From contig NZ_KB892708.1 of the NCBI RefSeq assembly GCF_000373925.1, positions 62,001 through 126,000 of the forward strand: a stretch of DNA of 64,000 nt. The letters run 5' to 3'. Both the position numbers and the translations under genes were made by a program. The notes beneath the pieces are model-generated. The model did not search any database. It was not told the origin of the DNA and saw only the letters and a program-made list of their open reading frames with translations. Numbering within the stretch: the stretch's first letter is position 1; each line of letters begins with the position of its first letter. Below, in pieces: positions 34,354-60,596 of the stretch. This DNA comes from Actinopolymorpha alba DSM 45243. GTDB taxonomy: Bacteria > Actinomycetota > Actinomycetes > Propionibacteriales > Actinopolymorphaceae.

Positions 34354-34401
34354 AGGTCGCGAACTGTAGAGGGAGCTGGCTCCTTCTACAGTTCGCGACC
34401 T
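34354..34401. terminator. Long palindrome, bidirectional terminator
   Basis: Perfect 17-bp inverted repeat AGGTCGCGAACTGTAGA / TCTACAGTTCGCGACCT with a 14-nt loop, exactly between the convergent GH84 and esterase genes. It can stop both transcripts; no T tract. Confidence 0.8.
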
Positions 34402-38095: not shown

Positions 38096-38143
38096 AAGGT
38101 CCCCGTTCATCTCATTCGCAAGGAGAAGATGAACGGGGACCTT
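38096..38143 (-). terminator. 17-bp palindrome between EF-G2-like gene and membrane protein
   Basis: AAGGTCCCCGTTCATCT (38096-38112) and AGATGAACGGGGACCTT (38127-38143) are perfect inverted repeats with a 14-nt loop. It lies 64 bases after the EF-G2-like stop and ends one base before the next ATG, replacing any normal SD there. It may act as both terminator and translation control. Confidence 0.75.
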
Positions 38144-45140: not shown

Positions 45141-45233
45141 GGGAATGATCACGTTTGCGTGATCATTCGCCACCACGCAAGGTGAATTCGCCGCGCATGG
45201 TGGGGACTTGCCGAGTAAACGTGATCATTCCCG
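45141..45233. repeat. Nested palindromes between pdxS and pdxT
   Basis: GAATGATCACG / CGTGATCATTC (45143-45153 and 45158-45168) forms a perfect 11-bp hairpin with loop TTTG. The same left arm also pairs farther away: GGGAATGATCACGTTT (45141-45156) with AAACGTGATCATTCCC (45218-45233), 16 bp perfect. Two mutually exclusive structures are possible. A related element lies at 46914. Confidence 0.85.
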
Positions 45234-55530: not shown

Positions 55531-55626
55531 ACCGGTCGAAATTCGGGGATCATGTTGTGGACGCTGCCGGCAGCTTCCACTGTCGGTGCCCGTAAACTGG
55601 TGTCTTGCCGCCCCGGAGGAGATCCT

Positions 55627-58155
55627 GTGGCCGAGGAGACCGTCTCGACCCCGTCGGCGCGCGGAGAGGTCGACCGCACGCAGCGACGCTCTGTGAGCGC
55701 GTCCAAGAATGGCTCCGCGGCTGGCGGAGTCACGAGTGCGGCTGCCACCAGCGCCAACGGCGCCCCCAGCGCCTCCAGCGCCTCCAGCGCCAACGGTGCC
55801 TCGAGTGCCAACGGCGCCGCCAGTGCGCCGGCCACCGGGCCTGAGCACCGCCGGAACCGAGGCGGAAGCGGTCGCCGCGGTCAGGGGCAGGGCGTCGGCG
55901 GCGCGTTCTCTGGATCGTCCCGCCGGATGCGCGAGCGGCTCGCCCGACTCGGTCGGTCGCCCCAGGGCAACCCCGTCCTCGAGCCGTTGTTCCGGATCGT
56001 CCGTACAACCCACCCCAAGGCCGACCTGGCGCTGATCGAGAAGGCTTACCGTACGGCCGAGCGCTGGCATCGCGGGCAGTCCCGCAAGAGCGGTGACCCG
56101 TTCATCACCCACCCGGTCGCCGTCAGCACCATCCTGGCCGAGCTCGGCATGACGCCGCCGACCCTCTGTGCGGCGCTGCTGCATGACACGGTCGAGGACA
56201 CGCCGTACACCCTGGAGGAGCTCCGGGGCGACTTCGGCGACGAGATCGCGATGCTGGTCGACGGCGTCACCAAGCTCGACAAGGTCAAGTACGGCGAAAA
56301 CGCCCAGGCCGAAACCATCCGCAAGATGGTGATCGCGATGGCCAAGGACATCCGCGTCCTGGTCATCAAGCTCGCCGACCGGCTCCACAACATGCGCACC
56401 CTGCGCTATCTCAAGCAGGCGAGCCAGGAGCGGATCGCCCGGGAGACCCTGGAGATCTACGCGTCGCTGGCCCATCGGCTCGGCATGAACACCCTGAAGT
56501 GGGAGATCGAGGACCTCGCGTTCGCGACACTGCATCCCAAGCTGTACGACGAGATCGTGCGTCTCGTGGCCGAGCGCGCGCCGTCGCGCGACGAATACCT
56601 CGCGAAGGTGATCGACCAGGTCCAGACCGACCTGCGGGCCGCCAAGATCAAGGCGACGGTCACCGGGCGGCCGAAGCACTATTATTCGATCTACCAGAAG
56701 ATGATCGTCCGTGGCCGCGAGTTCGGTGACATCTATGACCTGGTGGGCATCCGGGTCCTGACCGACTCGGTCCGCGACTGCTACGCCGCCCTCGGTGTGA
56801 TCCACGCGCGCTGGAACCCCGTTCCGGGGCGCTTCAAGGATTACATCGCCATGCCGAAGTTCAACATGTACCAATCGCTGCACACGTCAGTGATCGGGCC
56901 TGAGGGCAAGCCGGTGGAGATGCAGCTGCGCACCTTCTCCATGCACCGGCGGGCGGAGTACGGCGTCGCGGCGCACTGGAAGTACAAAGAAGACCCCAAC
57001 GCCGGACGCGAGACCGACAGGTCGGGCGGCCCCAATGACATGGCCTGGCTGCGGCAACTCCTCGACTGGCAACGCGAGACCGAGGACCCCGGCGAATTCC
57101 TCGAGTCGCTGCGGTTCGAGATCAATTCCACACAGGTCTACGTCTTCACACCGCGCGGCGACGTCATCGCTCTGCCCCTCGGCTCCACGCCGGTCGACTT
57201 CGCGTACGCCATCCACACCGAGGTCGGTCACCGCTGTATCGGCGCGCGGGTCAACGGCCGGCTGGTGCCGCTCGAGAGCCAGCTGGAGAACGGCGACCTG
57301 GTCGAGGTCTTCACCTCCAAGGCCGAAGGCGCCGCGCCGAGCCGCGACTGGCTGACGTTCGTCAAGAGCCCGCGGGCGCGCAACAAGATCCGGCACTGGT
57401 TCACCAAGGAACGCCGCGAAGAGGCGATCGACCAGGGCAAGGACCTGCTGGCCCGGATGGTGCGCAAGGAGGGCTTGCCTCTCCAACGCATGCTCACCCA
57501 CGAGGCGCTCGCCACGGTCACACGGGAGCTGAAGTACAGCGACGTTTCTTCCCTCTACGCCGCCGTCGGCGAAGGCACCATCACCGCGCAGTCTGTGCTA
57601 CGCCGGCTCATGCAGAGCTTCGGCGCCTCCGAGGAGGAAGCCGAGGACGTCTCCGAGGGTGTCATCCTCTCGACCGAGACGCGGCGCCGCGAGCGGATGC
57701 CTCGCGGCGACTCCGGCGTGGTCGTGAAGGGCGCCTCCGACGTCTGGATCAAGCTGGCCAAGTGCTGTACGCCGGTGCCCGGTGACGAGATCATCGGCTT
57801 CGTCACGCGGGGCGCGGGGGTGTCCGTTCACCGCGGCGACTGTGTCAACATCGATCACCTGACCGCCCAGCCCGACCGCATGCTCGAGGTGGAGTGGGCG
57901 CCGACGGCCCAGAGCCTGTTCCTCGTCCAGATCCAGGTGGAGGCACTCGACCGGGCCCGGTTGCTCAGCGACATCACCCGGGTGTTGTCAGACCAGCACG
58001 TCAACATCCTGTCTGCATCGGTGACGACGACCCGGGATCGCGTGGCGAAGAGCCGCTTCACGTTCGAGATGGGTGACCCCAAGCACCTCGGACACGTGCT
58101 GCGGGCGGTTCGAGGTGTCGATGGTGTCTTCGACGCCTACCGCGTGACCAACTGA
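55627..58155 (+). CDS. relA: Bifunctional (p)ppGpp synthetase/hydrolase
   Basis: 842 residues, Rel type. After a low-complexity Ala/Ser/Asn-rich N-terminus (about 35-75) come the HD hydrolase ([27 protein letters not shown]), the synthetase ([45 protein letters not shown]), TGS ([32 protein letters not shown]), a zinc-finger-like KCCTPVPGD region and an ACT domain ([20 protein letters not shown]). Controls the stringent response. GTG 55627 with GGAGGA six bases upstream. Confidence 0.97.
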
Positions 58156-58503
58156 GGGCGGGTTTTGAGCGCTCTTATGCGCGCCGGACTGCTCGCAGGC
58201 TCCCTTGATGGCTCGGCGCGCATAAGAGCGCTCAAAACCCGCGTACCTGTGTGCCGGTCTGCTTGCAGGCTCCCTTGATGTGTCGGCACGCAAAAGGTGC
58301 CGATTCCCGCGGCGGAGAGTTGTTTCACCGACAGGATGGGCATGCGACTAGCTGATCATGAACCGGCTCGAGGGTCGTTCACTATGCGAGATCGGCCACC
58401 GACGCGAGATCTGCGCCGACGTCGCCGCGGAGAAGATCGGCCACCGAGGTCGCCCTGACTGTGGCGGGAGGCCCGTCGCAAGTAAGCCGACGCACCTGGG
58501 CGA
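58156..58503. repeat. Tandem hairpins with a conserved loop after relA
   Basis: Hairpin A: perfect 28-bp arms at 58158-58185 and 58215-58242 (inner ends GCGCGCC/GGCGCGC) with a 29-nt loop. Hairpin B: stem GTGCCG (58251-58256) / CGGCAC (58284-58289) with a 27-nt loop. The loops share CTGCT-Y-GCAGGCTCCCTTGATG although stem sequences differ while keeping pairing. The remaining 58300-58503 holds no convincing gene. Hairpin A may end relA transcription. Confidence 0.85.
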
Positions 58504-59742
58504 TCAGGCGGAGAACTCGTCGAGGGTCTTTTCGACCTCGGCAAGCCAGGCCTGCCGCGCCGCGAGGGCTTCCTGAGCCTTGCGCTCGGCCGACGTGTCG
58601 CCCTTGGCGCGCGCACGCGAGACCTCGCGTTCGAGGTCGGCGATCGAGGCCCGGAGCTGGGACAGCGTGTCGTTGGCGCGGGCCCGGGTCTCGGGATTGG
58701 TCCGCCGCCACTCCTGACCCTCGGCGCTGCGGATCGCCTCCTCCACGCGGCGAAGGCGCGCTTCGACCGCCCGCACCGAATCCCGGGGGACCCGCCCCAC
58801 TTCGTCCCAACGGCGCAGGATGTCGCGGAACGAGTCGCGCGCCGCCCGATGGTCGCGTGCCGGCACCAGCGCCTCGGCCTCCTGGAGGAGCACTTCCTTA
58901 CGCTCCAGGTTGGTTTGGAACTCCGCCTCCTGCTCGGCGAACGTCGCGTTACGGGCGGTGAAGAACCGATCCTGAGCGGCGCGGAAGCGTTTCCACAGCT
59001 GGTCCTCGACGTCCCGGTTGGCTGGCCCGGCGGCCTTCCACCGCTGCATGAGCTCGCGGTATCGCGAGGTCACCCGGCCCCAGTCAGTAGAGTCGGCGAG
59101 CGTCTCAGCCTCGCCGGCGATCTCTTCCTTGACCTGCCGGGAGTCCTCCCGCCGGGCGTTGAGCTCGGCGAAGTGCTGCTTGCGGCGGCGGGTGTAGGCC
59201 GTGCGGGCGCTGGAGAACCGGTGCCAGAGCTCGTCGTCGGTGGCCTTGTCGAGCCGGGGGAGTGCCTTCCACTGGTCGAGCAACTCGCGGAACCGGCCAA
59301 CCCCGTGGCGCCAGTCTGATCCGGTGGACAGAGATTCCGCTTCGTCCGCGATCGCGGCCTTCACGGTCCTGGCCTCGTCAAGCTGGCGTTTGCGTTCGGC
59401 GCGGCGCTGGTTGCGGCGTTCGGCGATGGTCGCCTCGAGCGAGTCGAGGCGGGCCGCGAGGGCCGCCAGATTGCCGACCGCCTGGGCGTTCTCGAGGTTG
59501 CGCCGCTCGCGTCGAAGCGCGTTCTGGGCCTCGTCGGGGGCGAGGATGCCGCTTTCGACCCGGGATGCCAGGAGGTCAACCTCCAGGGCGATCGCGTCGT
59601 ACTTGCGCCGAAAGAACGCCAGCGCGCCTTCTGGATCCCCCACCTGCCAGGACCCGACGGCACGCTCGCCTGACTCGGTGCGGACATAGACGGTCCCGTC
59701 GTCCGCGACCCTGCCCCAGGGTTCTTCTGCCGTTCCGCTCAC
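58504..59742 (-). CDS. DUF349 helical repeat protein
   Basis: 412 residues, almost wholly charged helix. Four DUF349 units are visible: SDWRHGVGRFRELLDQWKAL, TDWGRVTSRYRELMQRWKAAG, a third with RAARDSFRDILRRWDEVGRV, each followed by a Phe/Arg-rich helix. Coiled coil at the C-terminus. GTG 59742 (SGTAEEPWG) is chosen because AGGAG lies six bases upstream; GTG 59766 overlapping the neighbour's stop adds eight residues. Function unknown; the family is common next to relA/cyclophilin in actinobacteria. Confidence 0.85.
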   Translation of the reverse strand: MSGTAEEPWGRVADDGTVYVRTESGERAVGSWQVGDPEGALAFFRRKYDAIALEVDLLASRVESGILAPDEAQNALRRERRNLENAQAVGNLAALAARLDSLEATIAERRNQRRAERKRQLDEARTVKAAIADEAESLSTGSDWRHGVGRFRELLDQWKALPRLDKATDDELWHRFSSARTAYTRRRKQHFAELNARREDSRQVKEEIAGEAETLADSTDWGRVTSRYRELMQRWKAAGPANRDVEDQLWKRFRAAQDRFFTARNATFAEQEAEFQTNLERKEVLLQEAEALVPARDHRAARDSFRDILRRWDEVGRVPRDSVRAVEARLRRVEEAIRSAEGQEWRRTNPETRARANDTLSQLRASIADLEREVSRARAKGDTSAERKAQEALAARQAWLAEVEKTLDEFSA

Positions 59743-59762
59743 TACTCGCTCCTGGTCGGAGA

Positions 59763-60596
59763 TCACTTCGTCGTGACCTTGACATCCTGGATGATGACCG
59801 ATGTGGCCGGACGACCGACCCCCTTGGATCCGGAGTTCGGTGCGAGACCGGCCTTGGCTACGTTCTGTACGACGTCGAGTCCATCACGGACCTTCCCGAA
59901 CACGGTGACGGGATGCTCGAAGGTCGACGAGTCGCCGGAGGTGATGAAGAACCTGCTTCCGGCGTGGTTTTCCGCACCGGCCATCACGAGCCAGCCGGGC
60001 TCGAACGTCTTCTTCCCGTCGTTCTCGTTACCGAAGATGTAGCCAGGCCCGCCGCCGGATGCGGTGACGTCACCGCATCCGAGATACTCCGCCGTCGCGG
60101 GCTTCGTTGACAGGGTGTCGCACGTGGTCTTGTCGAAGGCGTTCTTGTTGGCGAGGAACGTGAACGAATTGACCGCGCAGCCGGCGTTCGCGCCGAAGAG
60201 GTCAGCCGTGATCGTGCCCTGGTTGGTCTTGATCGTGGCGACGGCATCCTTGAGCGGTGCCTTCGCCGGCGGCAGGCCGAAGGACTTCTGGTCCTTGCCC
60301 TCCTGCGCGACGTAGGTGCACTCACCTGCCTTGGTCGGGCGGGGTGCACCGGTCGCGGTGGGGGAGGGAGATGCCGACGGCGTGGCGGTCGGTGTGGCCG
60401 CTGCACTGGCCGGCTTGTCGCCCTTGAAGAGCAGCGAAACAGCGTACCCACCCGCGATCACGGCGAGGACCGCCAGCACGACGCCGGCGATGACGCCGCG
60501 GCGGCGCACACGTTGCCGACGCTCGAGGCGGCGAGCCCGCTGGCGGACCAGCTTCTGCCGGGCGAGTTGGCGCTGGCGCTGCTTCTTCGTGACCAC
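59763..60596 (-). CDS. ppiB: Membrane-anchored cyclophilin-type peptidyl-prolyl isomerase
   Basis: 277 residues. Arg/Gln-rich cytoplasmic start, one TM (GVIAGVVLAVLAVIAGGYAVSLLF), Pro/Thr/Ser linker, then cyclophilin domain: TIKTNQGTITADLFG, CAVNSFTFLANKNAFD, GGGPGYIFGNEN, PGWLVMAGAENHAGSRFFITSGDS, VFGKVRDGLDVVQNVA. Speeds Pro isomerisation in exported proteins, probably outside the membrane. GTG 60596; its stop neighbours the DUF349 gene. Confidence 0.93.
   Translation of the reverse strand: MVTKKQRQRQLARQKLVRQRARRLERRQRVRRRGVIAGVVLAVLAVIAGGYAVSLLFKGDKPASAAATPTATPSASPSPTATGAPRPTKAGECTYVAQEGKDQKSFGLPPAKAPLKDAVATIKTNQGTITADLFGANAGCAVNSFTFLANKNAFDKTTCDTLSTKPATAEYLGCGDVTASGGGPGYIFGNENDGKKTFEPGWLVMAGAENHAGSRFFITSGDSSTFEHPVTVFGKVRDGLDVVQNVAKAGLAPNSGSKGVGRPATSVIIQDVKVTTK

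Follow-up and report, generated by a model that had tools for sequence, protein, structure and literature searches.

Tip-capped palindromes downstream of relA and at other gene ends in Actinopolymorpha alba: an apparently undescribed DNA repeat family of a few actinobacteria

Results

Two tandem hairpins downstream of relA

The window analysed in this study, a stretch of 64 kb of the Actinopolymorpha alba DSM 45243 genome, carries on its plus strand (55552-58155; stop codon 58153-58155) an ORF which we take to be a relA/spoT-type gene and, convergent to it on the minus strand (58504-59766), an ORF which is presumably DUF349-like, both positions being those of the ORF list. The C-terminal part of the relA-type gene is present in five of five congeners, and a sequence similar to the convergent gene also follows relA in all five. 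The relA-type ORF ends 2 nt before a hairpin, designated A, the left arm of which (58158-58186, plus strand, 29 nt) is 100% complementary to the right arm (58214-58242, 29 nt), while the loop region between them (58187-58213, 27 nt) holds a conserved 20-nt tip, TGCTCGCAGGCTCCCTTGAT, at 58190-58209, delimited by alignment with copies at other loci and in other genomes. Hairpin B follows on the same strand and consists of a strict six-pair stem, formed by the left arm GTGCCG (58251-58256) and the right arm CGGCAC (58284-58289), around a tip copy, TGCTTGCAGGCTCCCTTGAT, at 58260-58279.

A preliminary description of the locus had reported that the two hairpins share a nearly identical loop, which is borne out as each contains one copy of a direct repeat of 49 nt (84% identity, 70 nt apart), with 27 nt between the arms in both. 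The arms of A, given there as perfect over 28 bp, are perfect over 29 bp; the stem GTGCCG/CGGCAC ascribed to B as a different one is present and hardly differs from that of A, the innermost six pairs of which read GCGCCG/CGGCGC, B departing from them by one compensated pair before it soon becomes unpaired. In the minimum-energy fold the right arm of B pairs with a downstream GTGCCG (58297-58302) and not with its own left arm, while the centroid fold keeps hairpin B with eight pairs and five more past a bulge. Hairpin B is regarded as a weaker and probably decaying tandem copy of A. The A/B pair by itself offers one compensated base pair only, and the evidence for covariation comes from other copies.

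Two exact copies of the 16-mer GCAGGCTCCCTTGATG are present in the window; with up to three mismatches it has three matches against 0.59 expected, a number reached by one of 100 shuffles. RNA folding of positions 58100-58330 gave z = -6.9, and none of 200 shuffles folded as well. When loops of up to 60 nt were allowed, four near-perfect hairpins with an arm score of at least 14 were found in the 64 kb, of which A is the longest (29 vs 18, 17 and 16), so that hairpin A lies far beyond chance. An Rfam search of the window returned four tRNAs as its only matches at gathering level and none for the hairpins, while seven loci searched at a relaxed threshold gave three weak matches (E 0.15-0.74) which were judged to be chance.

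Other palindromes were observed in passing. Two more long near-perfect hairpins, at 34354-34401 and 38096-38143, lack the conserved tip, and a separate palindromic repeat family with conserved arms (GGAATGATCACGTATACGTGGTCATT...) is represented at 45141-45232 and recurs elsewhere in the source genome (L195:4884-4975 and L191:7462-7547), which has further palindrome families with arms like CATGATCAACTTGCGGAAATCGCCCACG and GTTGTCATAGGTTTCTCGG. Downstream of relA in congener G005 (L051) lie two tandem hairpins of another kind with common feet (GTGAAGCGTGAA... / ...GTTTCACACTC), so that repeated hairpins are seen at the relA end there as well.

A family of capped hairpins in the source genome

When the hairpin region was compared by BLAST with the source genome (G000; 7.98 Mb in 127 contigs), most matches were to the core sequence at other places. 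A pattern search with at most two mismatches gave 17 matches vs one for a reversed control; 13 of these are capped hairpins, A and B included, and the matches L016, L022, L024 and L025 were rejected as family members as they possess no long stem. A covariance model (R1) built from 12 G000 copies retrieved 17 copies at E ≤ 1.3e-6, 12 of them being in the model, as is hairpin B (G000:C2:120227-120313, E 1.1e-6); two weaker matches (E 0.02 and 0.56) were dropped. The copies occupy 16 sites, A and B sharing one, and 15 of the 16 are intergenic by our own gene calls, which were made from ORFs and codon-position GC, with gene names assigned by recall.

The element measures approximately 85 bp and consists of arms of 25-38 nt and an asymmetric tip of 18-21 nt, with the consensus T(G/C)(C)TCGC-NN-GCTC..TTGAC, which caps stems of about 30 bp. 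The common loop in G000 is GACTGCTCGCAGGCTCCCTTGAYGTCT, its 5′ part being altered in L068, and the stems are near-perfect and mostly unrelated between copies. At L058, downstream of typA, the right arm and 3′ flank (AAGAATCC.TGCG.CACCTCCCGGCCGTCAGTCGG) recur slightly further on, a partial tandem duplication like that of A and B at relA.

Covariation and the perfection of the arms

In an alignment of 12 copies (A1), both partners vary in 26 of the 28 stem pairs and 89.6% of cells are paired vs 57.7% in shuffles and 38-45% when the alignment is slid. A second alignment (A3), comprising 14 sequences (11 G000 copies and three from the genomes G190 and G123), has 18 of 20 stem pairs changing on both sides (9-15 when slid); for the complete structure of 24 pairs the count was 78 cells vs 26.7 in shuffles, with a score of 0.616 vs 0.08-0.21 when slid. 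The weakest of the measures, further pair types, was equalled by six of 500 shuffles. Arm alignment scores of 35 copies from all genomes, a set from which hairpin B and L068 were left out, ranged from 30 to 58 (median 46), the maximum in 700 shuffles being 28.

RNA selection would be expected to tolerate G.U above A.C pairs on the sense strand, and this signature was not found in the trimmed arms: the solid arms contain 926 Watson-Crick, 14 G.U, 11 A.C and 70 other mismatched pairs (G.U vs A.C, p = 0.69). Untrimmed arms of 34 copies, a count in which L245 is missing and L061 is mis-cut, gave 42 G.U vs 18 A.C pairs (p = 0.003), an excess which is gone once the outer ends are trimmed. Since G.U and A.C pairs are equally rare, arm perfection does not look like the product of RNA selection alone. 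Template switching offers a ready explanation by analogy, as it can renew a perfect stem, with double compensatory changes, in one DNA replication event (PMC8794818). The RNA hairpins treated there resemble the present family in their perfect stems and double compensatory changes; the difference is that template switching is a general mutational mechanism and not a repeat family with a conserved cap. That one arm is ancestral and the other its copy was not demonstrable, since divergence between the corresponding intergenic gaps of the congeners is too great.

Distribution in other genomes

A 27-nt pattern (at most three mismatches) matched in G000 only among 38 genomes, namely G000 and 37 relatives, five congeners included. 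A 20-nt pattern had matches in 31 out of 394 genomes of the class; among 30 matched loci the only hairpins of the tip-capped design, besides the G000 loci, were L078 (G190) and L079 (G123), while L071 and L089, in which a core-like match is flanked by short arms only (scores 9 and 10), were judged to be chance. Covariance model R2 matched 10 of the same 394 genomes at E ≤ 0.01. Its matches in G098, G189, G340 and G344 (L218-L221), which do not fold as long-arm hairpins of the tip-capped design, were also judged to be chance; it detected at least ten copies in G184 and at least one each in G282 and G242, and as the model held no sequence of any of these three genomes, these matches are independent. 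Model R3 matched six of the 394 genomes at E ≤ 0.001 (G000, G123, G184, G190, G242 and G282); its alignment included one spurious reverse-strand row (L056) and most of the G184 copies, so that its scores in G184 are not independent. Both class scans scored 13 candidates per genome and their counts per genome are therefore minima. Scoring more candidates in 39 genomes of the order of G184 left two positive, G184 with 12 copies and G282 with two. By the R3 class scan G190, G123, G242 and G282 have one or two copies each.

The tip of 18-21 nt is conserved over 30 aligned copies from three families, and in G184 it is mostly TCTCGCAAGCTCGTTTGAC. At the end of atpD, G094 and G077 possess a variant in which a helix of about ten pairs takes the place of the two apex bases (GAGTGTGGC...GCCACACTC for G094), TGTC and TTTGAC remaining around it. 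These variants were not reported by R3, which means that the family is wider than counted. They also bear on a CAAG/CTTG mini-helix considered within the tip, which was abandoned since the helix-extended copies suggest GC-NN-GC as the apex; the G.U pairs of the mini-helix are consequently not counted as evidence for RNA.

In viral sequences the short core has three exact matches, none of them a hairpin passing the filter; two longer core patterns found no match in viral contigs, and the window hairpins had no BLAST match in plasmids or phages.

Position and orientation relative to genes

Across all genomes 36 sites were classified, of which 28 lie in the sense orientation within 100 nt after a stop codon, three are antisense and five are other, the excess of sense over antisense being significant (two-sided sign test, p ~5e-6) and pointing to transcription. 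Eleven of the 16 G000 sites are of the sense class (L055-L063, L065 and L068), the genes concerned being presumably relA, typA, valS (before folC), mftD, rplI, an HtrA-like protease, an amino-acid permease and others. Of the remaining sites, two (L053 and L064) are antisense, L052 lies between divergent genes, L066 is upstream of smc (name by recall), and L054 (G000:C106:33967-34053) lies inside a Nudix ORF, the two parts of which are in different frames with the expected motif partly missing.

All six copies in family f23 are sense after a stop, as are 11 of the 14 in G184 and G282 (group g94), where one is antisense (L226) and L232 and L234 are ambiguous; in G184 two convergent gene pairs carry one element for each gene (L224/L238 and L230/L240). 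Seven of these 11 sense sites (L215, L224, L228, L230, L240, L242 and L244) follow a TAG stop, compared with 38 among the 190 long ORFs of a 400-kb portion of G184 (p ~0.002, the sites not all being independent). A GC stem-loop followed by a U tract, as in the classical intrinsic terminator, is not the rule: three or more T within the 8 nt after the stem were found in 11 of 35 copies, hairpin A being among them with exactly three.

Shared gene ends and turnover

Copies recur at the ends of the same genes (names by recall): typA in G000, G123 and G190, atpD in G190, G242, G094, G077, G184 and G282, and pdxS in G184 and G282. The typA end was readable in 19 of 22 f23 genomes, 17 of which show either a plain hairpin or too little space for any, and the atpD-atpC gap in 21 of 22, with the element in G190 and G242, its helix-extended variant in G094 and G077 and, in the 17 others, likewise a plain hairpin or too little space. 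Ten of the 16 G000 sites were compared with congeners (relA, L052, L055, L058, L060, L062 and L068 with all five, L065 with three, L054 and L056 with one, that of L054 perhaps not being a true orthologue at 61% identity); the element was absent at all ten, other hairpins being present at some, and it is therefore dispensable. The preferred sites thus gain and lose the element frequently. The G000 copy at rplI is situated past another hairpin, which is kept.

Left arms were compared over 28 nt, the six nt next to the tip being left out, a comparison in which the 99.9% point of the null was 16. Copies at unrelated genes have arms in common (L055/L060, 23/28 nt; L061/L063, 22/28; L053/L056, 20/28; L052/L066, 19/28); L061, L063 and L065 are alike along the palindrome and not visibly beyond it, and two G184 copies, one after atpD and the other after a transporter-like gene, have about 20 bp of stem in common. 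It follows that whole units have been duplicated and that the two arms of a copy have since changed together. Over the ten nt closest to the tip the copies are 52% identical, and over the outer part 36%, compared with approximately 29% for shuffled arms, a gradient which fits divergence from common ancestors.

Core-free hairpins were also seen. One downstream of typA is common to three species (L283, L285 and L288 in G172, G218 and G144; CTCCCGCTTCRCCAGGCATGC... / ...GGAGCGGGAG or GAAGCGGGAG). Others, of 16-22 bp, occur in G184; these ordinary hairpins and the other palindrome families of G000 indicate that long stems are unremarkable and that the cap is what is special.

Discussion

The preliminary description held that pairing kept with changed bases, together with a conserved loop, marks a structured RNA or a protein-bound DNA hairpin and not a plain terminator, and it looked to a covariance-model search for further copies. 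That search yielded them, with strong covariation, in G000 and in other families, and with the tip conserved across them, which supports the view that the hairpins are more than plain terminators. The designation as a structured RNA fares less well, considering that the arms contain 14 G.U vs 11 A.C pairs and that unrelated loci have stems in common, as in a mobile repeat. A literature search found nothing recognisable as a family of tip-capped palindromes, and the elements are apparently an undescribed DNA repeat family in a few actinobacteria.

The closest known systems are the REP elements and REPINs. REP elements possess stems of 5-13 bp and terminal GTAG or CGTC tags (PMC3733652) and loops of 2-20 nt (PMC3733652, PMC3116915), while REPINs have conserved ends and a variable spacer with compensatory changes (PMC3116915). 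The present elements are likewise short extragenic palindromes in several to many copies, foldable as single-stranded DNA or mRNA, with compensatory changes and tandem arrangements, and in G000 the palindrome recurs at extragenic sites. The copy number of REPs is usually much higher than 17. The present family is their inverse, as it conserves the tip and varies the stems of about 30 bp, which are mostly unrelated, no short conserved stem of 5-13 bp exists in arms of 25-38 nt, and no common tag lies beside the stem. In the flanks of 35 copies the GTAG or CGTC tag of REPs does not recur there, the commonest 5′ tetramers being TGGG (4/15, G000) and GGTC (4/14, g94). The family is thus REP-like in habit and fails the tests that define REPs. 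Rfam candidate structured RNAs offer a second comparison, since alignments A1 and A3 both combine covarying pairs with a conserved unpaired sequence and the internal-loop tip accommodates an extendable helix; the difference is that no Rfam family matches the element.

Based on these findings, we tentatively favour a REP-like palindrome that would serve as a transcript 3′-end hairpin, its tip being bound by a putative factor. The sense position after stop codons favours a presumptive terminator or 3′-end role, and as the stems differ by site and the tip is nearly constant, something probably recognises the tip. The DNA-perfect arms and the sense bias together lead to the combined view of a mobile, self-correcting DNA palindrome which may serve, or survive, as a 3′-end hairpin. 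Upon transcription of the upstream gene the element would fold in the 3′ UTR as a long hairpin and end, attenuate or protect the transcript, termination or 3′ protection being the likely effect by analogy with the U-poor stem-loops of Streptomyces clavuligerus (PMC8269248). A trans-acting factor would read the tip, for which reason the tip sequence alone would be conserved while the stem need only pair; perfect pairing would be renewed by template switching or palindrome correction at the DNA level, and copies would spread within genomes in a REP-like way. Counting against this reading are the copies at atpD-atpC and valS-folC, within operons where full termination would be harmful, those that are not sense 3′ sites (L052, L053, L064, L066 and L226), and L054, which breaks a Nudix ORF. 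The dispensability seen in congeners, the absence of a G.U excess over A.C and the scarcity of T behind most stems also weigh against it.

A possible but less probable account is that the family is selfish DNA, in which case a non-autonomous palindromic mobile element (REP/MITE-like) is recognised at the tip of its folded strand by a transposase or another single-strand DNA enzyme, 3′ sites being merely tolerated. The patchy distribution (17 copies in G000, none by the 27-nt pattern in the five congeners), the stems common to unrelated genes, the disrupted Nudix ORF and the DNA-perfect arms with no G.U excess all agree with it, and TnpA-REP enzymes read tags and contact loops, bulges and other stem irregularities in folded DNA (PMC8266576). 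Tolerated random insertion would nevertheless not be expected to produce 28 sense vs three antisense sites or recurrence at the typA and atpD ends across families. Nor is there a common tag directly beside the stem: GTAG lies within 40 nt 5′ of six of the 14 g94 copies vs 6% of background 40-mers, and was rejected as a tag because it coincides with the TAG stop, at a varying distance of 9-17 nt from the stem, and is rare in other groups (1/15 G000 and 1/6 f23 copies; background 6-7%). A motif scan of approximately 916 kb of G000 (overlaps included) and 428 kb of G184 gave a single IS200-type TnpA-like ORF, in G000 (L201, minus strand, about 10537), which was dismissed as a partner as no tip element is nearby.

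The favoured reading can be extended into a more far-reaching proposal, to which we assign a rather low probability: that the elements form a class, mobile palindrome or 3′-end RNA, with its identity only in an apical internal-loop motif, that template switching makes their stems of about 30 bp anew at every site, that the ends of typA, atpD and pdxS are recurrently colonised, and that a dedicated protein reads the tip and tunes transcript ends.

It is improbable that the tip alone is the element, a tiny insert that lands in the loops of pre-existing, gene-specific terminator hairpins, the stem belonging to the host gene. Such an origin would agree with stems that differ by site, with the other gene-specific hairpins of relatives (read by eye) at the typA, rplI, L056, L068 and atpD ends, and with the core-free hairpins of G184; the fairly uniform arm lengths, the stems in common at unrelated genes, the position at rplI past a retained hairpin and the partial conservation of the arm next to the tip (52% vs 36%) all count against it.

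Still less probable are ordinary GC-rich intrinsic (I-shaped) terminators with loops that match by chance. Their likeness to the elements lies in a long stable stem after a stop, several between convergent genes, with few U behind it. To our knowledge no conserved loop sequence of 18-21 nt exists in such U-poor terminators, of which such a tip is not a feature, and its conservation over 30 copies of three families cannot be chance and already contradicts this account; moreover, only 28 of 36 sites are shown to be sense after a stop. Long U-poor stem-loops are indeed common at the 3′ ends of Streptomyces clavuligerus transcripts, but the loops described here exceed the 4-8 nt named as optimal for terminators (PMC8269248). 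The least credible explanation is a DNA-level site, either a cruciform or a palindrome bound by protein, that acts in chromosome organisation or regulation independently of transcription, for although the DNA-perfect arms and dispersed copies agree with it, the sense bias relative to the upstream gene and the lack of matches to the 27-nt pattern in congeners, which speaks against an essential chromosomal role, do not.

The definition of REP-type repeats rests on conserved stems or end tags, and a family conserved at its tip only is easily missed by repeat finders. The tip-capped family provides a natural setting in which to ask whether stems are kept perfect by template switching and how 3′-end hairpins come and go at housekeeping genes.
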